A stretch of 64,000 nucleotides of DNA, from positions 2,046,001 to 2,110,000 of the forward strand of contig NC_017030.1 of NCBI RefSeq assembly GCF_000255295.1. The letters run 5' to 3'. The position numbers and the translations under genes were made by a program. Under the pieces are notes generated by a model. It was not told the DNA's origin. It saw nothing but the letters and a program-made list of their open reading frames with translations, and did not search any database. Within the stretch, counting starts at the first letter, position 1. Each line of letters opens with the position of its first letter. Source of the DNA: Corallococcus coralloides DSM 2259 (GTDB lineage Bacteria; Myxococcota; Myxococcia; Myxococcales; Myxococcaceae). This document shows, piece by piece, positions 7,706-42,391 of the stretch.

Positions 7706-10010
7706 CTAGCTGCCCCTCAGATTGCTCTGCCACGGAGAGACGTGATCCGGGTCATTGAGCCAATAGAACATCGCTTGCGTCTCCGCGTACTGCCGCTCCG
7801 CGATGGACACCAGGTTCGGGTGCAGGTCGCCCAGCGCCACGCCCTCGAACAGGAAGCCCTGGCCGGGCTTCGTCGTGCTGGCATTGCCGCGGTACTTGCG
7901 GTCCCGGCTCTGCCACAGCCGCTGCGAGGCCTGTCCCGCCGCCTGTCCGTAACCCGCCGGCGGCGCGATGCGCGTGGGCATCTGGAACGTCGTCTCACCG
8001 CACGACCACAGCAGCCACGACAGCGCGCTCCAGTCCCCGCGCAGCATCAGCGTCAGGTCCGCGAACCCCATCTCCAGGTTGAGCGTCTCGTCGATCTCCA
8101 CCTGCTCGTCCTCGCCCAGCTCCAGCTCTTCCTGCTTCAGCTCCACGGGCCCATCACCCAGCAGGCCGGACAGGTCCGGCGGCAGCCAGGGCACCGCCGC
8201 GCCGGGCTTGTAACGCTGGAGCAGCGCGCCGCGCATCGCCTGGAGCCGCGTGGCGTACTTGCGCACCAACTGCTGGATGGCCTCCAGGGACTGCTCGGGC
8301 TTCTCCGGCAGGCCGTCGTAGGTGCAGTGCGGAGGCTCCTGTCCCGCCCAGAAGTCGAACCGGGGGAACAGCGCCCGCGCGTACGTGGCCAGGAACCGGG
8401 CGGTGTCCGGCTCCACTGCCGCGAGCCCCTCCGCGTCCTTCTGCACCTGATCCGCCACGCCCAGGTTCAACAGGATGAGGCCGCGCGTGAACAGGTACGC
8501 CTTGCGCTCCGGCGCGAGCAGCATCGCCGCGTGCAGGAAGTCCAGCGCCGCGCGAGGCCGGTCCGTCTGATCCAAGAGCACCGCGTAGGCCCGCAGCAGC
8601 GTGGCGGCCTCACCGCCGCGCATGAGCGCGTCCGCCATGGGGGCCCACGCCTGGCCCGCGTCCTCCACCACGCTGTGCGCGACCTGGCTCGCGGAGTCCT
8701 GCGTGCGCGGCAGCGTCAGCTCCTCCAGGCCCTGCTTCAGCGGCTGGATGTCCAGCGACGTGGCGCACGCGCGCGCCGTGGCCAGCAGGGCCTCGCGGTA
8801 GCGCCGGTCCGCGCGGGCCTCCTTCGCCAGCTCGCGCCAGCCCTCCGCGCTCCGGGGGAGGTTGGAGAACACCGGCGAGCGCGCCAGCGTCTGTTCATCC
8901 ATCGCCCGGCCCAGGTCGCGCTTGATCACCACCGCCCGCTGCGCGTCCATCAGGGACCACTCGTCACATGCGAAGTCGCCTTCCGCCCGGCCCTCCTCGA
9001 AGTGGACGCGGAAGTCCGCGTAGGTGTCCTCCGCGCGCGACCAGTAACGCCCGTGCCGCCGTCCGTTGTCGAACTCGGCCTCCCAGAGCAGCTGGCCCTG
9101 CACGTCCCAGAAGCGGGTGAGGCCGTGGCGCTCGCGGTTCGCGTTGAGCGTCACCTTGGCCCACTGGTTCAGGTCCTCGCGCAGCTCCGCGTCCTCGGGC
9201 AGGTGGGCCGGACGGGTGGGGTAGGGCTCGCCGGTGGAGGGCACCACGCGCTGCCCATCGCCGTTGAAGTGCTCCACCTGCCGCACGGTGCCGCGCTCGT
9301 AGTGCATCACCGTCTTGCGCACGCGCTCGCTCACGCCGCCTTCGTGCATGCGCTCGGTGGTGAAGCCGTCGGACGCAATCCAGGTGCGGGGGCCGTGGAG
9401 CTGACCCTGCTCGAAGGCGCCCTCCTGGGACACCGAGCCGTCCTCGTGGAAGCGCTTGAAGGGGCCGTGCGGCCGGCCCTGCTCCAGGATGCATTCGTTG
9501 CAGAGGGTGCCGTCGGCGCGCCAGTACCGCCACGTGCCGTGCGGCCGGCCTTTTGCGTCCGTTCGGGCCGAAGGACCACTCCTCGTCGCCGTCGTCCCAG
9601 GTGGCGCCCTCGGGGACGCCGGTGGGGAGCTGGCCCGCCTCGGTCCGCTCGCGGTTCGCCTTGCGGCGCTCCTCTTCCTCGACGTCCACGGCTCGCAGCG
9701 CGATCAGCAGCCGGTCCAGGGCCTCGGCGGGCAGCGCCTCGGAGACGCGGCGGACCTCCAGGCCGTCCTTGAACGCGACGATGGTGGGGTAGGCGTCGAT
9801 GCCCAGCGGTTCGGCCACGGCCTCGTGGGCCTCCGCGTCGAGCCGGGCGAAGGTGATGTCCGGGAACCGCGCGGCGGCCTCGGTGAAGACCGGGGCGAAC
9901 GCATGGCAGGGTTCACACCACGGCGCCCAGAAGTCCACGACGCACATGCCGGGCTTCTGGGTGACGGCTTCGAAATCCTCCGGGGTCAATTCGACCGGGA
10001 CGCCTGCCAA
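7706..10010 (-). CDS. Thioredoxin / MORN-like / TPR protein, interrupted by a frameshift
   Basis: Two overlapping minus-strand frames make one protein of about 768 residues. The N-terminal part is a thioredoxin fold with the redox motif FWAPWCEPCHAF. Both frames give matching halves of a MORN/YwqK-like repeat region: GRPHGTWRYWRADGT, then GRPHGPFKRFHEDGS and GQLHGPRTW. A helical TPR-like segment and a C-terminal domain follow. The frame is lost at about 9551-9554, where four A residues on the coding strand (CGC AAA AGG) would need one removed to give NGRKGRPHGTW. This is either a real null mutation, a consensus error or, less likely, a +1 recoding site. The start is TTG at 10010 with AGGAG six bases upstream. 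It is cotranscribed with the FHA gene. Its role is unknown. Confidence 0.65.
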
Positions 10011-10165
10011 CGGGAACTCCTGCTCAAGGGGAGAGGCAGATAAGAGGGGCGCCGGGGGCCCGCGTCAACCGGCGCGTCACGGGGAGTCCGGCTTCCGTCC
10101 CGGCCGGACAGGGACGGCGGGTGCGTCCGCGAGCAGCAGGGGGCGGGACATGGAACGATGGCCGG

Positions 10166-10993
10166 ATGCGGCCCACCCTCGTGGTCATCAACGGTGAACA
10201 GTACTGGCAGCGTTACTTCCCGGAATCGGAGGTCGTCTTCCGCAGGCTCCAGGAGTGTTCCTGGGTCCTGCGCGGTGGCGACCTCTGGTGCATCAACCGC
10301 GAGTCCGCGATCCGGCTGGACGGCGTGCTCTGGCGGGTGGGCGCCATCCGCCCGGACCCCAGACACCGTGCGACGCTGGAGCTCATCCGCCTGAGCGGTG
10401 TGCCCTGCTCCAACCCGGCGTCCGTGCTGGCGCGCTGTCACGACCGGCTGTCGATGCTGGCGGAGATGCGTGAGGCGGGGCTGCCGGTCATTCCGTTCGA
10501 CGCAGCGCTCGGCGACGACATGCTGCGCCGGCTGGAGCGGCCCGTGCCGTTCGTCGTCAAGGTCGGCAATCACCACGCGGGGTTGGGCAAGGCGCTGGTG
10601 CGCGACGCGGGTGCGTGGCCGGAGATCGCGGACCTCCTCTTCGCCGCGGATGACTACGCGGTCGTCGAGCCCTTCATCGACTACGAGCGCGACGTCCGCT
10701 GCCTCGCGGTGGGCGAGCGCATGTGGGCGATGACGCGGGCGAGCGCGGGCTGGAAGGCCAACGTCGACACGCGCAAGTACCACGTCATCGACCCGCCGCC
10801 GGAGCTCGCGGAGCACACGCGCCGGGCCATGCGGCATCTGGGCGCGGACGTGCTGGGCCTGGACTTCCTCCAGGCGAAGGACGGCGCCTACACGCTGCTG
10901 GAGTGCAACGACACGCCAGGCCTGTCCGGCTTCCCGGAGGAGCTGAGGGAGGACGTCGCGGAGTGCCTGCGTGTCCGGATGCGTCAGCGCTGA
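10166..10993 (+). CDS. ATP-grasp family ligase (RimK-like), orphan
   Basis: 275 residues from the ATG at 10166 (a GTG at 10121 is a longer option; neither has a strong ribosome site). The ATP-grasp fold is seen in VVKVGNHHAGLGKALV (phosphate-binding loop and ATP-contacting lysine), VVEPFIDYERDVRC (hinge) and the metal-binding LECNDTPGLSGF near the C-terminus. Such enzymes join a carboxylate to an amine, thiol or hydroxyl via an acyl-phosphate; close relatives modify peptides (RimK, RiPP ligases) or make small dipeptides. No precursor peptide or partner gene is visible beside it, so the substrate is open. It is divergent from the thioredoxin-MORN gene. Confidence 0.75.
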   Translation: MRPTLVVINGEQYWQRYFPESEVVFRRLQECSWVLRGGDLWCINRESAIRLDGVLWRVGAIRPDPRHRATLELIRLSGVPCSNPASVLARCHDRLSMLAEMREAGLPVIPFDAALGDDMLRRLERPVPFVVKVGNHHAGLGKALVRDAGAWPEIADLLFAADDYAVVEPFIDYERDVRCLAVGERMWAMTRASAGWKANVDTRKYHVIDPPPELAEHTRRAMRHLGADVLGLDFLQAKDGAYTLLECNDTPGLSGFPEELREDVAECLRVRMRQR

Positions 10994-33961: not shown

Positions 33962-35173
33962 CGGACCGGCGCGGCTTCAAGGGATGACCTCGGCGGCAGG
34001 TCGGAGCGGTCCAAACCTGTCCGACCGTCGGACAGGTTTCCGCCGCCCGGGCGAAGCAGACGCCTCCGGCCGAGCAGTTCCAAACCTGTCCGACAGTCGG
34101 ACAAATTTCCGCTGCTCGGGCGAGGCGGACGCTCCCGGTCGAGCAGTTCCAAACCTGTCTGACAGTCGGACAAGTTTCAGCCGCCGGGACAAAGTGGGCG
34201 CCGTCCGGCCCCCAGCTTCAGGCCCGTCCGATAGTCCAACAGGTTTGAGCCGACCGGGCAAAGCGGGAGCCTCCAGGCCGCGCCGTTTCAAGCGTGTCCG
34301 ACAGTCGGACACGTTTCTGCTGCCGGGCGAAGCAGACGCCTCCAGGCCGCGCGGTTCCAAACCTGTCCGACAGTCGGACAAGTTTCCCAGGCTCGGATGG
34401 AAACGGGAGCGTCCCGACCACGCAGTTCCAAACGTGTTCGACAGCCCGACAGGTTTCAGCCGCCCAAAAGCGGACCCCTTCCGCCGCGCGGTTCCGAACC
34501 TGTCCGACAGTCGGACAGGTTTCCGCCGCCCGGAATGAGCAGGCGGCTCCCGGCCGCGCCTTCCGGGACGTGTCCGACAGTCGGACAGGCTTCCGAGGTC
34601 CGGGTGGAAACGGGGGCGTCCCGGCCGCCCCGTTCCAAACCTGTCCGACAGGTTTCGGCCGCCTGGATGAGGCGGCCTGGCCCGGCTGCGCCGCTCCGAA
34701 CCTGTCCGACAGTCGGACATGTTTCCGAGGCCCGGATGGAAACGGGCGCGTTCCGGCCGCGTCGTTCCGAACCTGTCCGACAGTCCGACAGGTTTCCGCC
34801 TTCCGGAGGCGGACGCCTTCCGACCGCGCCGCTCCGAACGTGTCCGACAGTCGGACAGGTCTTGGCCGCCTGGACGAAACGAGCAGCTTCCAGTCGCGTC
34901 GTTCCAAACGTGTCCGACAGTCCGACAGGTTTCGGCCGGCTGGACGAGGTGGGCACCTCCCGGCCGTGCCTTTTCAAACCTGTCCGACAATCGGACAGGT
35001 TTTGGCTGTGCGCCGCCGGCGGGGGACGTCTCCGGAGGGTTCTCGTGTTCTCATCCCTTTGGAGGGGGCTCATGCCCGAAGGCTGAGGGCGAATGGATGC
35101 CCCGGGCTGCGAGCCCGCGGCCACCGGCTGATGCGACGCGGACCGGGACCGTTCCTCTACACTGCGCCGGCCC
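33962..35173. other. 1.2-kb intergenic region dominated by a repeat array
   Basis: No gene is supported here. Long open frames exist on both strands, but they are produced by the 69-bp (23-codon) repeat period and show the same NLSDCRTG-type peptide in every unit. The last about 170 bp (35002-35173) lie upstream of the acetamidase-like gene and should hold its promoter; I could not identify clear promoter boxes. Confidence 0.7.
34013..35001. repeat. Array of fifteen 69-bp units with a CCTGTCCGAC palindrome
   Basis: Fifteen units start near 34013, 34082, 34151, 34220, 34289, 34358, 34428, 34497, 34566, 34635, 34696, 34768, 34837, 34906 and 34975. Each has a near-perfect 25-bp inverted repeat (12-base arm AACCTGTCCGAC, central A, complementary arm) plus a 43-44 bp spacer with its own consensus (about TTTCCGCCGCCCGG...GAAGC, then GGCCGCGCCGTTCC). 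The tenth unit lacks 8 bases of the palindrome, and the next start is accordingly early. Unit divergence is clear but modest. The function is unknown; candidates are a multimerised protein-binding site, a structured RNA/DNA element or a mobile repeat family. Confidence 0.9.
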
Positions 35174-36472
35174 ATGATCCGCTCCCTCGCCGTCCTCCTC
35201 TGCTGTCTGCCTGCCGGCGCGCTCGCGGCCTCCGAGTCCTGGCTCGTGACGACCGACCTGTGGGGCAACCCCGCCTACCAACTCCTCACGCTGGCGCGCG
35301 ACGGGAAGCGCCTCTCCGGTGAACTGGACGGCGATGCGCTGAAGGGGGAGCGCACGGGCAACGCCATCCACTTCGTCGTCACGGACTCGCGCCAGCAGAC
35401 CTATGTCTTCGACGGCAAGGTGAGCGGTGAATCGCTGCGCGGCACCGCCGACTACCCGGACAGCAACAACCCGAAGACGCGGGTGTCCCATGCCTTCACG
35501 GGCCGGCTGCTGCCCTCTCGCCCCGCGGGCGGTCCCCGCGTGCATGACTTCACGCCCACCTCGTGGTCCAACGAGTTCACCGCGCACCGTGCGCCGGTGC
35601 TGACCGTCTGGCCGGGCGACACGGTGCGCACCTCGACGCTCGACTCTGGCGGCATGGACTCGAAGGGCGTCACCCGCGCCCTCTTCGGCAACCCGCAGAC
35701 GGGGCCCTTCTTCATCGCCACCGCGAACCCGGGCGACACGCTGGCCATCCGCATGCGCCGCCTCAAGCTCAACCGCACGTTCGCGGACAGCCTGGATGGC
35801 ATCGTGGGCCGGGCCCTCACGCCGGGCCTCGCCGCGAAGGCGACGGAGCTGGGCAAGCCCGTGCGCTGGAAGCTCGACCCCGAGCGCGGCGTCGCGACCC
35901 CGGAGAACCCGACGGAGCGCCTGAAGGCCTTCACCGTGCCGCTGCGGCCCATGCTGGGCGGCCTGGCCGTGGCGCCCGGCTTCGGATCCGCGCCGCTGTC
36001 CACCGGCGACACGGGCCGCTACGGCGGCAACATGGACTTCAACGAGGTCGTGGAGGGCAACACCGTCTACCTGCCCGTGGCGCAGCCCGGAGCGCTCCTG
36101 TACCTGGGCGACGCGCACGCCGCGCAGGGCGACGGCGAGACGTCGCAGTACGCCCTGGAGACCTCCATGGACGTCGAGTTCACCGTGGACGTCCTGCACG
36201 GCAAGCCGCCGCCCTCCACGCCTCGCGTGGAGTCCCCCACGCACCTGATGGCGCTGGGGCAGGGCGGCTCACTGGACGACGCCCTGCGCTCCGCGACGCA
36301 GGGGCTGACGCAGTGGCTGGAGCAGGACTACGGGCTCACCCTGTCGGAGAGCGCGCAGGTGCTGGGCAGCTCCGTCCAGTACGTTGTCGCGAACCTCGCC
36401 GGGCGCAGCGTGGGCGTCGCCGCGAAGCTGGACAAGGCCCGGCTCCAGGCCCTCCGACCCTCGGTGAAGTGA
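35174..36472 (+). CDS. Secreted acetamidase/formamidase-family protein
   Basis: 432 residues with a signal peptide (MIRSLAVLLCCLPAGALAAS). Residues 20-115 form a small beta-rich domain (GNPAYQLLTLARDGKRLSGELDG) common in front of secreted amidases. From about 125 the FmdA/AmdA fold is recognisable: VWPGDTVRTSTLDSGG, GPFFIATANPGDTLAI, GRYGGNMDFNEVVEGNTVYLPV and GALLYLGDAHAAQGDGE. These match formamidase/acetamidase active-site regions. Family enzymes hydrolyse formamide, acetamide or other short amides; a periplasmic version with an extra domain probably uses a different amide. It stands alone on the plus strand after the repeat array. Confidence 0.8.
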   Translation: MIRSLAVLLCCLPAGALAASESWLVTTDLWGNPAYQLLTLARDGKRLSGELDGDALKGERTGNAIHFVVTDSRQQTYVFDGKVSGESLRGTADYPDSNNPKTRVSHAFTGRLLPSRPAGGPRVHDFTPTSWSNEFTAHRAPVLTVWPGDTVRTSTLDSGGMDSKGVTRALFGNPQTGPFFIATANPGDTLAIRMRRLKLNRTFADSLDGIVGRALTPGLAAKATELGKPVRWKLDPERGVATPENPTERLKAFTVPLRPMLGGLAVAPGFGSAPLSTGDTGRYGGNMDFNEVVEGNTVYLPVAQPGALLYLGDAHAAQGDGETSQYALETSMDVEFTVDVLHGKPPPSTPRVESPTHLMALGQGGSLDDALRSATQGLTQWLEQDYGLTLSESAQVLGSSVQYVVANLAGRSVGVAAKLDKARLQALRPSVK

Positions 36473-36610
36473 GCTGTAGTCCCGGGGGGGCCCGCGGCCC
36501 CGGAAAATGGGGCGGAAATGCCGTGTCGATTCCGCGGCCCCTCGTTCGACATGGAGATGAACCCTCCCGGTCACCCGGGAGCACTCATTCCGCCGAACCG
36601 GGAGCCTCCC

Positions 36611-37198
36611 ATGGCCATCAAGATCGCAATCGCCGTCCTCGTCATCGTCGTCGCGCTGGGCGCCTTCGTCGCCACCCGCCCGGACCACTTCCGCATCGAG
36701 CGCAACGCGCACGTGGCCGCGCCCCCGGAGACCGTCTTCCCGCTGATCAACAGCCTGCGCCGGTTCGACACGTGGAACCCGTTCCGCTCCGAGCCCGGGC
36801 CCGGCGTGACCAATGTCTTCGACGGGCCCAACGAAGGACCGGGCGCCAGCTTCGCCTATGCCGGCGGTGAGTCCGGGGCTGGGCGCATGACCATCGTGGA
36901 GAGCCAGCCCAGCGCGCGCGTCGTCCTCAAGCTGGAGTTCATCAAGCCGTTCGAAGCCACGAACCAGACCACCTTCACGCTCACGCCGGAGAACGGCGGC
37001 ACTCGCGTGAGCTGGGCGATGGAGGGCGAGAACACCCTGATGGGCAAGGTGATGTCGCTCGTCGTGAACATGGACACGATGCTCGGCAAGGAGTTCGAGA
37101 AGGGCCTCGCGAACCTGGACGCCGTCGCGCGGGGAGTCACCCCGCCTTCCAGCGCGAGCGCCCAGGTCGACGCGGCGACGCCCGCCCCGGCGCTCTAA
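36611..37198 (+). CDS. SRPBCC-family protein with N-terminal membrane anchor
   Basis: 195 residues from the ATG at 36611, which follows GGGAG. Residues 4-23 (IKIAIAVLVIVVALGAFVAT) form one membrane helix. The rest is an SRPBCC (START/Bet v1-like) fold: RIERNAHVAAPPETVFPLINSLRRFDTWNPF is the usual opening, and FTLTPENGGTRVSWAMEG a later strand. Such proteins bind hydrophobic ligands; the specific ligand is unknown. It ends 9 bp from the stop of the convergent serine hydrolase gene. Confidence 0.8.
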   Translation: MAIKIAIAVLVIVVALGAFVATRPDHFRIERNAHVAAPPETVFPLINSLRRFDTWNPFRSEPGPGVTNVFDGPNEGPGASFAYAGGESGAGRMTIVESQPSARVVLKLEFIKPFEATNQTTFTLTPENGGTRVSWAMEGENTLMGKVMSLVVNMDTMLGKEFEKGLANLDAVARGVTPPSSASAQVDAATPAPAL

Positions 37199-37207
37199 GC
37201 GAACGCC

Positions 37208-38428
37208 TCAGTCCTCCAGCGCCCGGTAGGCGCCCTTGGAGAACTCCAGGGCCAGGGCCTCGTCGTCGGGGCCCTGCGCCCTTCGCTGTGTCAGGAGGAT
37301 GGCGCTCAGGTCCTGCCGGGGGTCGATGAAGAACGTCGGGCCGTAGCCGCCGGCCCAGCCGTAGCGTCCAGCGGTGGGGGAGATGCCATCCGGCTTCGTG
37401 CACACGGCTCCGCCGAAGCCCCATCCGGACGCATCCCAGAAGCCGGGGAAGAAGGGCGAGGCGGCCTTCTGCTCCTCCGGAATCTGATCCGTCAGCAACT
37501 CCTGGACGCTCGAGGAGGACAGTAGCCGGGTGTTCCCGGCCCGGCCTCCGCTCAGCAGCATCCGGCAGAAGGCGAGGAGATCATCGGCCGTGGACACGAG
37601 CCCTCCCTGGCCTCCTCCCGACGGAAACGCCGGAGGCCGCGACCAGAAGCTGTCCGCCGGTGTGTCCCACGCCTCCAGCCTCCCCGTGGCGTCGTCGAGC
37701 GCGTAGGCCGTCGTGAGCCGGTCGAGCTTCTCCGCGGGCACGGTGAACGCCGTGTCCTTCATGCCCAGCGGGACGAAGAGCGCCTCGCGCAGGAAGTCGT
37801 CGAAGCGCATGCCCGAGGCCCGTGCGACGAGCACGCCCAGGACCTCGTAGCCGGTGTGATAGCTCCACCGCTCTCCCGGCTGATGCATGAGCGGCAGCGT
37901 GCCCAGCCGCCGCATGAATTCGTCGGGCGGATCCGTGAGCGCGTGGAATCCGGGCGCCACCCGGGCTTCGCTCATGGCCCGCTGGATGGGGTGCGTGCCG
38001 GGCGGCGCCATCACCGCGCCCAGCCCCCAGCGCAGCGTGAGCAGGTCCCGCACGGTGATGGCGCGCTTCGCGGGAACGGTGTCGTCGAGCGGGCCGCCGG
38101 GAGTGCGCAGGACGCGGCGGTCCGCCAGCTCCGGCAGCCACGGGTCGATGGCGCCGTCGAGCGGGAGCTTCCCGTCCTCCACGAGCATCAGCGTGGCCAC
38201 CGCCGTGATGGGCTTGGCCATGGACGCCAGCCGGAAGAGGCTGTCCCGCCGCATGGGCGGACCGGAGGGCGCAAGGCCCTGCGTGCCCAGCACGTCGACG
38301 TGCACGGTGTCTCCGCGAGCGACCAGGGCGACGATACCGGGCAGGTCACCGCGTTCGACGTGGCCGCGCAGGGCGGAGGTCACGTCGGCGAGCCGTGACG
38401 GGGAAAGCGCGGCGGAGCGTGGGTGCAT
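37208..38428 (-). CDS. Beta-lactamase-fold serine hydrolase (class C-like esterase)
   Basis: 406 residues, no signal peptide. The SxxK nucleophile motif is Ser69-Met-Ala-Lys72 in FRLASMAKPITAV, and the second motif is the Tyr of WSYHTGYEVLGVL. The GYGPTFFIDP region near the C-terminus matches the KTG-equivalent strand. This places it in the Beta-lactamase (PF00144) family with esterases such as EstB and penicillin-binding-protein homologues. Most such cytosolic members are esterases or peptidases, and no resistance role should be assumed. It lies upstream of the graspetide-type operon on the other side of its terminus; the 63-bp gap leaves cotranscription unlikely but not excluded. Confidence 0.85.
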   Translation of the reverse strand: MHPRSAALSPSRLADVTSALRGHVERGDLPGIVALVARGDTVHVDVLGTQGLAPSGPPMRRDSLFRLASMAKPITAVATLMLVEDGKLPLDGAIDPWLPELADRRVLRTPGGPLDDTVPAKRAITVRDLLTLRWGLGAVMAPPGTHPIQRAMSEARVAPGFHALTDPPDEFMRRLGTLPLMHQPGERWSYHTGYEVLGVLVARASGMRFDDFLREALFVPLGMKDTAFTVPAEKLDRLTTAYALDDATGRLEAWDTPADSFWSRPPAFPSGGGQGGLVSTADDLLAFCRMLLSGGRAGNTRLLSSSSVQELLTDQIPEEQKAASPFFPGFWDASGWGFGGAVCTKPDGISPTAGRYGWAGGYGPTFFIDPRQDLSAILLTQRRAQGPDDEALALEFSKGAYRALED

Positions 38429-38491
38429 GGCCTTGAGTCTAGTCCTGCGACGCCGGCCGCGAGTCCAAATGCATGGAGGCAGGCCAGCGCT

Positions 38492-39256
38492 TCAGCGCTT
38501 CGCGAGGATGAAGGCGGTGACGGAATAGCGCTGGTGGCCCCGGGCCTCGGACGTCCATTCCGTCACGCGGTGGGGGGCGCCCCTCGCGCGGAAGATGAAC
38601 ACCGAGTTGAAGAGCGGCGGGACGCGCATCATGTCCGCATCCACTTCGGGATGCCGGAAGGTGAGGACGCCTCCGAAGCGGTCCTCCCACGGGCGCGTGA
38701 AGTTGTAGACGACGGCGAGCCCTTCCTCGTCCGTGTCCCGGTGCTCCGGGAAGAACTCGCCTACGTCCATGCGCGACACCTGCACCTGCCGCGTCTCCAG
38801 CGGCTCGGGCCAGCCCACCAGCGCTGCGTGGAAGGCCGCTCCGTCCGCGCTCTTGAGCCACGCGCAGAAGTCCGTCAGGGCGGAGGGCTCCTGTTGATGC
38901 AGCGGCGCGATGTGCAGCGGATAGGGCCCGTGGTGGTGGCGCACGAAGCGCGCGTCTCGCAGGGCCTGGTGCAGGGCCTCGGCGCGCTCGGGGAAGAGGG
39001 CGTCCGTGAGGCAGAGGTGCGGCACCCGTCCGCCTTCGATGAACTCCCGGCGGAGCGTGGCGTGCAGGGCTTCGGAGACGGAGGCCAGGCGCGTCCACGC
39101 GGTCGCGGAGGCCGGGAACACCTCCGGCTTCGGGGACGGAACGGGGCCGAAGATGCTGTCGGCGTAGTCCGTGATGAAGAACCCGCTCGGGCGCTCAGGC
39201 CTTGGAGACGAGGTAGCTGGCGAGCCGGGTGATGACTTTGCCGTCGCGCGGATCAT
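38492..39256 (-). CDS. 2-oxoglutarate/Fe(II) oxygenase (prolyl-4-hydroxylase-like), RiPP cluster
   Basis: About 254 residues from the ATG at 39256. The iron site is His172 and Asp174 (EHRDTDEEG) with His229 (GAPHRVTEW), followed by the 2OG-binding region RYSVTAF. MDVGEFFPEHRD and LTFRHPEVDADM are typical of the proline-hydroxylase-like 2OG oxygenases. The recognisable domain starts at about GFFITDYADSIF. No ATG, GTG or TTG lies between the upstream stop and this point, so the start must overlap the ATP-grasp gene by about 60 bp (or 98 bp from 39292). This coupling argues for joint function. The Pro- and Asp-rich core repeats of the precursor two genes upstream are plausible substrates; that is inference. 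Confidence 0.75.
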   Translation of the reverse strand: MIRATAKSSPGSPATSSPRPERPSGFFITDYADSIFGPVPSPKPEVFPASATAWTRLASVSEALHATLRREFIEGGRVPHLCLTDALFPERAEALHQALRDARFVRHHHGPYPLHIAPLHQQEPSALTDFCAWLKSADGAAFHAALVGWPEPLETRQVQVSRMDVGEFFPEHRDTDEEGLAVVYNFTRPWEDRFGGVLTFRHPEVDADMMRVPPLFNSVFIFRARGAPHRVTEWTSEARGHQRYSVTAFILAKR

Positions 39257-40133
39257 CGAAGAAGGAGATGGCGGGAGTGGGGTTGAACTCAAGCGCCACG
39301 AAGGCGCCGTCAGGCGTGCGCCGCAGGTCCACCGCCGTGAAGACCATGCCCAGCGCTCTGGCGCCCTTGAGACACACCGCCCAGGCCTCCTTCGGCAGGC
39401 GGGCGGGCTTCACCCGGTGCAGGTTCTGCCTCGCGTCCACCACGCCGTCCGTGGGGATGTGGAAGGCGGACACGGGCTCTCCGTCGAGCACGTAGGCGCG
39501 GAACTCGTCGCCCTGGATCTGCTCCTGGAACAGCACCGGGCAGTTGGCGAGCAGTTGGAGCCGCTCCTCGGTGAGGTCCGCCTCCTCCACCTTGCGCACC
39601 AGCGCGCCGCCGCTCAGGGGCTTGTAGATGACGGCCCCTTGGCGCGCGACGAACTCGCGCACCGCGTCCGGCGAGGCGGTGGCCAGGGTGCTGGGGACGG
39701 GAATGCGGTGGCGGCGCAGCAAGGCCAGCTGTTGCAGCTTCAGGTAGTGCAGCTCCACCGCCTCCAGCGGATTGACGAACGAGCCGCCGCGCCGGTGGAG
39801 CGAACGCAGCACGGAGTGGAGGAACGACTGGCGCTCCCGCTCCGCCAGGTACTGCTCCTGCCAGCGCGGGAAGTTGCGCTCGGACAGGGCCTCGGCCTCG
39901 GGGACCGGGAGTGAGAGGCGCACGAGCTTGAGGTAGAACGAGCGCAGGTCGCTGAGACACTCACCGTCCCAGTGCACCTCTCCGTCCTCCCAGCTCAACG
40001 CGGCGGAGTCCGGGACCCGATCCGTTTCCAGGACGATGGCTCGCGCACGCCGCCGCTCCACCGCTTCCGCGACGAAGCGGGTGGCGTCATCCGAGCGCGA
40101 GCCGATGACCACGACCTTCTTGCGAGACGTCAT
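39195..40133 (-). CDS. ATP-grasp peptide ligase, likely graspetide maturase
   Basis: 312 residues. ATP-grasp features: Lys171 in VIYKPLSGG, hinge LFQEQIQGDEFRAYVLDG (Glu206, Glu210), and metal-binding Asp269, Glu282 and Asn284 in AVDLRRTPDGAFVALEFNPTPAISFF. The N-terminal about 130 residues correspond to the pre-ATP-grasp domain that binds leader peptides in microviridin/plesiocin-type ligases. The length (about 310-330) fits this group. These enzymes activate Asp/Glu side chains of a precursor peptide as acyl-phosphates and close esters (Ser/Thr) or amides (Lys). The gene starts 28 bp after a repeat-core precursor gene, which is the main reason to call it a RiPP ligase rather than a RimK-like enzyme. 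Confidence 0.8.
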   Translation of the reverse strand: MTSRKKVVVIGSRSDDATRFVAEAVERRRARAIVLETDRVPDSAALSWEDGEVHWDGECLSDLRSFYLKLVRLSLPVPEAEALSERNFPRWQEQYLAERERQSFLHSVLRSLHRRGGSFVNPLEAVELHYLKLQQLALLRRHRIPVPSTLATASPDAVREFVARQGAVIYKPLSGGALVRKVEEADLTEERLQLLANCPVLFQEQIQGDEFRAYVLDGEPVSAFHIPTDGVVDARQNLHRVKPARLPKEAWAVCLKGARALGMVFTAVDLRRTPDGAFVALEFNPTPAISFFDDPRDGKVITRLASYLVSKA

Positions 40134-40161
40134 GGGGTCCCTGACTTCGCCCGCCCGGTGT

Positions 40162-40890
40162 TCAGACCGGGCTGTCCATCTTGACCTTCACGATGCCGCC
40201 ATCCAGCGGCTTGAGGTCCGGGAGCTTCGAGCCACGCGTGGGGTCATCCATCATGACCTTCACCACGCCGCTGTCCGCCGGAGGCTTGAAGTCCGGCAGC
40301 TTCAAGCCACCGGTCGGATCATCCATCCGGACCTTCACCCGGCCACCATCCGGCGGAGTGAAGTCCGGCAGCTTCGAGCCACGGGTCGGGTCATCCATCA
40401 TGACCTTCACCATGCCGCCGTCCCGCGGCTTGAAGTCCGGCAGGTTCAAGCCGCCGGTCGGATCATCCATCCGGATCTTCACCCGGCCTCCGTCCGGCGG
40501 AGTGAAGTCCGGCAGGTTCAAGCCACCGGTCGGATCATCCATCCGGATCTTCACCCGGCCTCCGTCCGGCGGAGTGAAGTCCGGCAGCTTCGAGCCGCGG
40601 GTGGGGTCATCCATCATGACCTTCACCATGCCGCTGTCCTTCGGCGGCTTGAGGCCGACGCCGTCGCCCACGAACTGGTCCGCGAGCTCACGGGCCTTCG
40701 GGGTCAACTTGACCTTCTCGAAGGCGTCACGCACCTGGGTCTTCTGCTGGGGGCTCAGCTGGTTCGCGTCAGCGCCCTGGAGCGCCTTCTTGAGGGCCGG
40801 GGCGCCCACGGCCTTGCCAGCCGTGCTGGCGGTCTTCAGGGCGGTCTGCAGCGACGAGACGAAGCCCGTGGGGGATTTGATCTGGGTCAT
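40162..40890 (-). CDS. Multi-core RiPP precursor (graspetide-like)
   Basis: 242 residues, ATG at 40890 with AAAGGA upstream. Residues 1-87 are leader-like: helical, Lys/Ala/Gln-rich (SSLQTALKTASTAGKAV, SPQQKTQVRDAFEKVKL), no signal peptide. Residues 88-242 are tandem cores: six full units of 24-25 residues and a final 10-residue partial one. Two unit types are mixed: VKVMMDDPTRGSKLPDF (units 1, 4, 6) and VK(I/V)RMDDPTGGL(N/K)LPDF (units 2, 3, 5), joined by (T/K)PxDGG. Each core offers Thr, Ser or Lys donors and three to four Asp acceptors, as needed for ester/amide crosslinks. The ATP-grasp gene follows 28 bp later. The class is inferred; products are unknown. Confidence 0.75.
   Translation of the reverse strand: MTQIKSPTGFVSSLQTALKTASTAGKAVGAPALKKALQGADANQLSPQQKTQVRDAFEKVKLTPKARELADQFVGDGVGLKPPKDSGMVKVMMDDPTRGSKLPDFTPPDGGRVKIRMDDPTGGLNLPDFTPPDGGRVKIRMDDPTGGLNLPDFKPRDGGMVKVMMDDPTRGSKLPDFTPPDGGRVKVRMDDPTGGLKLPDFKPPADSGVVKVMMDDPTRGSKLPDLKPLDGGIVKVKMDSPV
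40165..40629 (-). repeat. 72-bp tandem repeats encoding the core peptides
   Basis: Six full units of 72-75 bp (residues 88-111, 112-135, 136-159, 160-183, 184-208, 209-232) and a truncated seventh. Units 1 and 4 encode identical peptides, and units 2 and 3 differ at only two positions, indicating duplication or gene conversion of a two-unit block. Confidence 0.9.
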
Positions 40891-41047
40891 GAAGATTCCT
40901 TTGGAAAGGTTATCGGCATGCCTGGCCGGGAGTTGCTTGATTCTCTGAGGATGAGAGTCCCGGTAGACCCTGGGGCTGCCTGGCCGCCCGCCGTCTTCCT
41001 TCGGGACGTGGGCGACCCAACCCTTGAAGACAAGGGGAGGAGACACC

Positions 41048-42391
41048 ATGGCGCACCGAGACGACGGACTGCTGGTGCGAGCGCTTGCCGAGTCCGTGCG
41101 GCCGCTCCAGGGGACGCGGGAGGACTTCGGGCCCCTGATGGACCTGGTGGGGGATGCGACGTGCGTGCTGATTGGGGAGGCGACCCACGGCACGCACGAG
41201 TTCTACCGGCTGCGCGCGCTGCTGACGCGGAGGCTCATCGAGGAAAAGGGCTTCAACGCCGTCGCGGTGGAGGCGGACTGGCCGGACGCGTACCGCATCA
41301 ACCGCTACGTGCGGGCCATGGGCACCGACGCGGACGCGGTGGAGTCGCTCTCCGACTTCCAGCGCTTCCCCGCGTGGATGTGGCGCAACGCGGACGTGCT
41401 GGACTTCGCGGGCTGGCTGCGGACACACAACGACCGCCACTCCGCGCGGGAGAAGGTCGGGTTCTACGGGCTGGACCTCTACAGCCTCCACGCCTCCATG
41501 GGCGCGGTGCTGAAGTACCTGGACCGGACGGATCCCGAGGCCGCGAAGCGCGCCCGGTACCGCTACGCGTGCTTCGAGCACTTCGGCGAGGACCCGAAGG
41601 ACTACGGCCACGCGACGTCGCTGGGCCTGTCGCCGGACTGCGAGCGGCAGGTCGTGGACCAGCTCCGCGAACTGCAACGGGAGCGCGAGGCACTGCTGCG
41701 CCGGGATGGCTTCATCGCGGAGGACTCGCAGTTCGAGGCGGAGCAGAACGCGCGGGTCGTCCAGAACGCGGAGGAGTACTACCGCTCCATGTTCCATGGA
41801 CGCATCTCGTCCTGGAACCTGCGCGACACGCACATGGCGGACACGCTGGATGCGCTGATGGGCTTCCTGAATCGCCGGCTGGGGGCCGCCCGCATCGTGG
41901 TCTGGGCGCACAACTCGCACGTCGGGGACGCGCGCGCGACGGAGATGGGGGAGTCGGGCGAGGTGAACCTGGGCCAGCTGACGCGCCAGCGGCACCCGCG
42001 AGCGACGCGGCACATCGGCTTCAGCACGTACCGGGGCACCGTCACCGCGGCCTCCAACTGGGGTGGGACCGCCGAGCGCAAGCAGGTCCGCCACGGGCTC
42101 GCGGGCAGCTGCGAGTCCCTCTTCCATCAGGTCGGCCTGCCGGGCTTCCTGCTGGACCTCCGTGAGCTGGGCGAGGCCGCCGGAGCACTCCGCGAGCGGC
42201 GCCTGCAACGGGCCATTGGCGTCATCTACCGGCCCGAGACGGAGCGCAGGAGCCACTACTTCCACACGCGGCTGCCGGATCAGTTCGACGCGATGTTGCA
42301 CATCGACGAGACGCGCGCGCTCGAACCGCTGGAGCGCACCGCCGGATGGGAGCGCGGTGAGGCGCCGGAGACCTATCCGACGGGCCTGTAG
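41048..42391 (+). CDS. Erythromycin esterase-family protein
   Basis: 447 residues from the ATG at 41048 behind GGAGGAG. The family signature [29 protein letters not shown] (Glu44, His47 as catalytic candidates) and the downstream [18 protein letters not shown]-type region, [15 protein letters not shown], and [17 protein letters not shown] all match the erythromycin esterase (PF05139) fold. Most chromosomal members act on unknown esters or lactones; only a few hydrolyse macrolides, so resistance should not be inferred. It is divergent from the RiPP precursor gene with 157 bp between the starts, which makes shared regulation possible. Confidence 0.85.

Follow-up and report, generated by a model that had tools for sequence, protein, structure and literature searches.

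Plesiocin-type graspetides are defined by TTxxxxEE cores, which are repeated within one precursor and closed by Thr-Glu esters through a 7drm-related ATP-grasp synthetase. Corallotide, or graspetide group 15, was described by Carter et al. in March 2026 from Corallococcus exercitus, where it is made by CorABCD (PMC13097080). We analysed a 64,000-nucleotide stretch of the Corallococcus coralloides DSM 2259 genome (the window; NC_017030.1, positions 2,046,001 to 2,110,000), in which three minus-strand genes very probably form a corallotide cassette, corA-corB-corC. In C. exercitus, CorB is reported to join Lys to Asp within each KxxxD motif of CorA, with CorC then adding a hydroxyl to C-delta of that Lys (5-hydroxylation, by nuclear magnetic resonance, NMR); the two enzymes form a complex in which CorC activates CorB. 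CorD, a member of the beta-lactamase family, has no function assigned in that account, which states an adjacent PF00144 gene for all group-15 clusters and describes the group as restricted to Corallococcus. The same report saw no antibacterial effect of corallotide and notes that the processed core tends to aggregate (PMC13097080).

An initial annotation of the window had recognized a graspetide-type cluster, and we agree. A repeat-core precursor of 242 residues, an ATP-grasp ligase (TIGR04187, 7drm) and a 2-oxoglutarate (2OG)-Fe(II) oxygenase (PF13640) lie where it placed them; the corB ATG follows the corA stop after 28 bp, and corB overlaps corC by 62 bp (given as about 60). It overlooked the KxxxD crosslinking motif and the PF00144 gene downstream, and its suggestion of a new graspetide group is not supported in view of the corallotide description: the locus is rather a member of group 15, published in 2026 and already including a Lys-hydroxylating oxygenase (PMC13097080). 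The traits of that group are present in the window, namely a KxxxD-repeat precursor, a CorB-type synthetase, an adjacent PF13640 oxygenase and an adjacent PF00144 gene. The gene order A-B-C-D and the N-terminal domain of the precursor are likewise common to the window and the C. exercitus system.

A protein-based scan of named genomes located the contig of C. exercitus AB043A that carries the locus (L032). Identity between the two loci is 94.6% for CorB, 88.6% for CorC, 86.0% for CorD and 79.4% for CorA. The AB043A CorA contains the tryptic peptide NPDDGVIVKIVADDPLR of PMC13097080. The position of its first motif (K91-D95) agrees with the truncations published there, in which CorA 1-93 was unmodified and CorA 1-99 modified. 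Given this orthology, the intact catalytic residues, the conservation of the motif and the gene unit, we are highly confident from sequence comparison that the window holds the corallotide cassette; by homology, we infer that its genes perform the C. exercitus chemistry. Some points weigh against this assignment. The AB043A CorA has seven KxxxDxP motifs and a mass of 26.1 kDa, whereas the tagged CorA of PMC13097080 is given as about 22 kDa, with five motifs modified; the window, a different Corallococcus genome, likewise has seven motifs against the five reported as modified. The text of PMC13097080 names no strain. Finally, CorB scores 93.8 bits against TIGR04187, far below the cut-off of 350. 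Whole-genome grouping places the window genome in one genus with genomes G017, G018 and G019. Against the nearest homologue (G027), the ratio of nonsynonymous to synonymous substitution (dN/dS) is low for corA (0.12), and also for corB (0.13) and corC (0.07), which were compared outside their overlap; all three therefore appear to be coding genes under selection.

PMC13097080 proposes a four-gene unit, corABCD, in which CorD would either work with CorC or serve as a maturation hydrolase. In that work CorD bound CorA in a pulldown, and its omission in E. coli left hydroxylation incomplete, with a -18 Da product remaining; CorD had no effect in vitro (PMC13097080). Moreover, of the 14 genomes of the window's genus that have corC, 13 (the window's among them) have corD immediately downstream of it. 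These observations count against leaving corD out of the system, but its distribution argues for doing so. Among the 16 genomes of the genus examined, corA, corB and an intact corC occur together in 14, and corD is present in all 16, including two without corB. In the sister genome G028, window segments 34425-38430 and 40970-42391 are joined with 39 bp between them; the absent segment is exactly window 38431-40969. This takes out corABC but leaves corD and the esterase-like gene upstream in place. In G029, which lacks window 38907-40686, corD is kept with only a remnant of corA and corC. In G023, corD lies 5.4 kb away from cor, and it was not found near six corBC loci examined in other Myxococcaceae genera. 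Conversely, 15 further genomes of the family carry corD homologues (E up to 1e-90, 52-55%), and of these G002 alone has cor. Because corD persists without corABC, is not near the corBC of other genera and is common in genomes lacking cor, we regard the system as corABC and corD as probably a neighbour outside it; a functional unit of four genes seems improbable. As a marker of group 15, corD is dispensable. No transporter or protease is evident among the cor genes. The 14 cor-bearing genomes include one metagenome-assembled genome, G026, whose corB lacks about 43 residues, among them the K171 region around the ATP-binding Lys (L049 2689-3543); this gene is either decayed or misassembled.

The core repeats of 24-25 residues that the initial annotation saw in CorA are real: Tandem Repeats Finder (TRF) reports 6.4 copies of a 72-bp period with 82% matches. 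Seven KxxxDxP motifs begin at residues 90, 114, 138, 162, 186, 211 and 235, a spacing of 24-25, compared to a mean of 0.39 motifs over 500 shuffles of the same protein. Met precedes the Asp in all seven, and the KIVAD-type motif is absent from window CorA. We surveyed 138 KxxxDxP motifs in 22 precursors, a set whose selection itself fixes K, D and P, and in which one precursor (G075) contains unread bases. Position +1 is V or I in 134 and position +3 is M, A or S in all 138; position +5 is D, E or S in 134, and position -1 is V, M, L, I or F in 128. This pattern allows the published KxxxD to be written more fully as phi-K-[VI]-x-[MAS]-D-[DES]-P. A match of CorA to DUF6767 (PF20555; E 0.0079, 16.4 bits against a cut-off of 27) was judged to be chance.

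The best NCBIfam model for CorB is TIGR04187 (E 1.1e-26), which ranks above rimK_fam. Its best solved relative is 7drm (E 4e-41), which we take to be the plesiocin ligase PsnB; entries named RimK reach about 5e-6, which speaks against the RimK affiliation raised as an alternative in the initial annotation. C. exercitus CorB is also labelled TIGR04187 (PMC13097080). Residues K171, E210, D269, E282 and N284 are invariant in 18 of 18 aligned homologues. Four of these had been named from the start; the fifth had been given as E206, a position occupied by Ile, and E210 is the invariant Glu. In a CorB tree, the window protein and group-15 CorB fall in one corallotide-type clade of 21 rows (support 100/98), separate from the synthetases that adjoin TTxxxxEE precursors; G182, G183 and G185 are flagged there as long branches whose exact order is unsure.

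The relation to 7drm, together with the Thr found in five to six DPT positions of the repeats, could suit a classic graspetide of the microviridin or plesiocin type, in which Thr/Ser hydroxyls form esters with Asp/Glu to close a compact core of several rings and the oxygenase is incidental tailoring. However, the repeats of other members do not keep this Thr and read DPL, DPI, EPS or EPA, while K, D and P recur. Window CorA has no TTxxxxEE core, in line with the earlier remark that its core resembles neither microviridin nor plesiocin. Unlike the plesiocin type, the locus combines a Lys-Asp isopeptide motif with a dedicated oxygenase and a synthetase from a separate clade, and the chemistry in C. 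exercitus is Lys-Asp (PMC13097080). We therefore retain the corallotide assignment and consider a classic graspetide very unlikely.

CorC matches PF13640 (E 3.5e-10), and its iron site, H172-x-D174...H229, which had been recognized in the initial annotation, is invariant together with R243 in 19 of 19 aligned homologues (254-residue numbering). No solved sequence relative was found at E up to 1. In a predicted model with a mean predicted local distance difference test (pLDDT) score of 76.1, and below 50 for residues 1-31, the closest folds are OGFOD1/Tpa1 (Z 18.4-18.7 over 193-202 residues, root-mean-square deviation 2.7-3.0); PHD2- and BesD-type enzymes also match, at Z of about 15. CorC thus shares the predicted fold and the HxD...H site with OGFOD1/Tpa1 and BesD-type 2OG-Fe(II) oxygenases, at 13-15% identity. 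Since BesD-type Lys enzymes match too, the fold cannot decide the substrate. The label prolyl-hydroxylase-like used earlier therefore holds for the fold but not for the substrate, which in C. exercitus is the crosslinked peptide Lys (PMC13097080). That CorC instead hydroxylates proline in PD/PP-rich linkers to give a collagen-like hydroxyproline protein, as its prolyl hydroxylase fold relatives and the GKP-type linkers of two distant precursors (G010, G009) might suggest, is hardly credible, given the NMR assignment to Lys C-delta (PMC13097080), the match to a Lys enzyme of the BesD type (7jsd, Z 15.1) and the variability of linker prolines among members.

In the corallotide system as we picture it for the window, CorA would be the ribosomal precursor. 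In each phi-K-[VI]-x-x-D-[DES]-P motif, CorB would use ATP to activate the side chain of the Asp and would link it to the epsilon-amine of the Lys four residues earlier (-18 Da). Hydroxylation of the crosslinked Lys at its C-delta (+16 Da) would follow, carried out by CorC, which would also bind and activate CorB. The net change would be -2 Da per motif, at up to seven motifs in window CorA. With low confidence, we suggest that the product may be a large, clipped structural polypeptide and not a small antibiotic.

Coordinates of the cor features in the window.
Feature	Position	Strand	Remarks
corABC cassette	38431..40969	-	limits taken from the empty site in sister genome G028
corA, precursor	40162..40890	-	242 aa; N-terminal domain about residues 1-86, then 24-25-residue repeats
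motif 1, KVMMDDP	40603..40623	-	K90-P96; predicted Lys90-Asp94 isopeptide, by analogy with PMC13097080
motif 2, KIRMDDP	40531..40551	-	K114-P120
motif 3, KIRMDDP	40459..40479	-	K138-P144
motif 4, KVMMDDP	40387..40407	-	K162-P168
motif 5, KVRMDDP	40315..40335	-	K186-P192
motif 6, KVMMDDP	40240..40260	-	K211-P217
motif 7, KVKMDSP	40168..40188	-	K235-P241; C-terminal; candidate modification site
corB, ATP-grasp graspetide synthetase	39195..40133	-	312 aa; TIGR04187 best NCBIfam model; 7drm; tree
corC, 2OG-Fe(II) oxygenase	38492..39256	-	254 aa; PF13640; invariant HxD...H...R; fold
"corD", PF00144 beta-lactamase-family gene	37208..38428	-	406 aa; PF00144 E 8.2e-63; adjoins corC
promoter-like element AGCAACT-N15-CGATAA	40910..40937	-	19 bp upstream of corA ATG

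The likely corC start is the ATG at 39256; the longest open reading frame (ORF) begins with a TTG at 39292 and would give 266 residues.

A search for three-gene sets in other myxobacteria, as proposed at the outset, found corABC outside Corallococcus too. A CorC profile (E up to 1e-8) matched 24 of 195 Myxococcota genomes. Leaving out G029, a remnant, and G066, with another kind of oxygenase, we count 22: 14 in the window's genus, three in g19, one in g3, two in g4, and G182 and G185 from two other families. The match in G009 has one stop in its N-terminal part, with a 220-residue ORF open. All 22 genomes score at least 234 bits with a CorB profile (G026 in two pieces), and elsewhere scores are at most 205 bits. 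The G066 oxygenase was rejected as cor: it matches CorC weakly (E 5.6e-9) and lies beside two other ATP-grasp genes and a 147-residue protein. This G066 cluster (L055, G066:C14:95000-108500, 6543-10209), with its PF13661 2OG oxygenase, the 147-residue protein and the two adjacent ATP-grasp genes, is possibly another oxygenase-bearing graspetide type.

DNA comparisons point to a transfer between genera. In a corBC DNA tree of nine genomes, G069 and G072 of g19 fall inside Corallococcus (support 100/100), and an approximately unbiased (AU) test rejects a Corallococcus clade for corBC (p-AU 0.00036), whereas Corallococcus is monophyletic for rpoB (100/100). Vertical descent of corBC in these two genomes is thereby rejected. 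In addition, the DNA shared with g19 stops at the cassette borders, from about 38490-38503 to 40956. Together these results indicate that the cassette moved horizontally between genera. We do not trust protein trees alone on this question, because corB synonymous divergence (dS) is greater between the window and G069 (0.435) than between the window and G024 (0.338) despite higher protein identity to G069. The CorC tree is poorly resolved, with 5 of 18 inner branches starred, so we claim no co-descent of B and C from it.

The more distant relatives vary in architecture. In G185, a single 587-residue ORF (L084 2850-4613) combines a CorB part (259.5 bits) with a CorC part (172.4 bits). A one-base error is an unlikely origin, since near the junction (about 90 codons) two frames are stop-free and the third stops only about 80 codons on; the fusion is known from one genome, where it may still stem from a larger assembly error. 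A natural CorB-CorC fusion fits the published complex of the two enzymes (PMC13097080). It is preceded by a 471-residue protein (L084 4550-5962) with two KIRADDP motifs. G183, of the same family, encodes a 474-residue protein (L086 5789-7213) that is 44% identical to it and has one motif. The ligase of G183 is CorB-like (188 bits) and joins that of G185 in the tree (96/82); the 11-kb locus has no CorC match. In both proteins a long C-terminal part follows the motifs, and for these two f25 precursors Pfam (E up to 0.1) gave only matches below cut-off and NCBIfam (E up to 0.01) none. Short precursors in G010 and G009 have KIRADDP or KIRADEP motifs and GKP-rich linkers, which do no more than recall the collagen resemblance discussed in PMC13097080.

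G182 mixes two kinds of core. One precursor piece, at the end of contig C20 (L085 7270-9648), contains eight TTxxxxEE-type cores together with two IKVRADDP motifs. After it come, in this order, a ligase that clusters with those of G008, G089 and G009b (100/99), a second ligase of the CorB type, and CorC. Another piece, at the end of contig C24 (L116), combines an N-terminal region with five TTxxxxEE-type cores and four motifs. In both pieces, cores and motifs alternate. The two pieces appear to belong to one gene. TTxxxxEE precursors lie within about 1 kb of ligases in G008, G089 and G009, and KxxxDxP, in the form tested, occurs in none of nine other TTxxxxEE loci examined. Within one cluster, the motif thus pairs with the CorB-type ligase and CorC, and the TTxxxxEE cores with the second ligase. 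In the open-licence literature searched, corallotide is covered by one paper, and no synthetase-oxygenase fusion or mixed-core precursor is named in the titles and abstract openings examined. We lean towards viewing phi-K-[VI]-x-x-D-[DES]-P as a portable Myxococcota crosslinking tag that one CorB clade would recognize whatever its setting. The settings would range from long repeats and repeats with GKP linkers to one or two copies in a 470-residue protein whose C-terminal part is globular, and to a single precursor in which the tag alternates with plesiocin-type cores and two ligases act. On this view the oxygenase would be an add-on, supplied by an overlapping gene or a fused domain, or missing altogether.

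Upstream of corA, AGCAACT and CGATAA occur 15-16 bases apart and 17-25 nt 5' of the ATG in all 17 of the g1 and g19 loci; G002 and the G029 remnant have variant forms. The element is absent from five other scanned loci (L053, L054, L084, L086 and the empty site L104; L085 was left out of the scan). A slightly stricter pattern has one match in the window genome, at corA, and none in the control. The spacing resembles that of extracytoplasmic function (ECF) sigma factor promoters, and we regard AGCAACT-N15-CGATAA as a putative ECF-type corA promoter.

Divergent from corA and upstream of it is a 455-residue ORF (41024-42391), presumably erythromycin-esterase-like; it is kept at the site in G028, G029 and near relatives and was not found near cor in g19. 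Farther off, window 34010-35002 is a tandem array of 14.4 copies of an approximately 69-bp unit (70% matches) with TGTCCGACAGTCGGACAGG palindromes in the units. Repeats homologous to these occur in G028 (L104), which points to an element that is conserved yet changes quickly.

With the contents of the window settled, the limits of the corallotide family are corrected: it is not confined to Corallococcus, and corD is probably outside it. Relative to the text of PMC13097080, what is new is the corABC unit, the loci outside Corallococcus and their transfer, the distant variants and the promoter-like element. A natural CorB-CorC fusion offers a soluble-enzyme route to a synthetase that is hard to purify, and the mixed-core precursor lets the choice of core by each ligase be tested directly within one polypeptide. 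If the tag is indeed portable, a short isopeptide tag would be a useful protein-stapling tool. The relatives described here suggest that corallotide chemistry is older and more widespread than reported.

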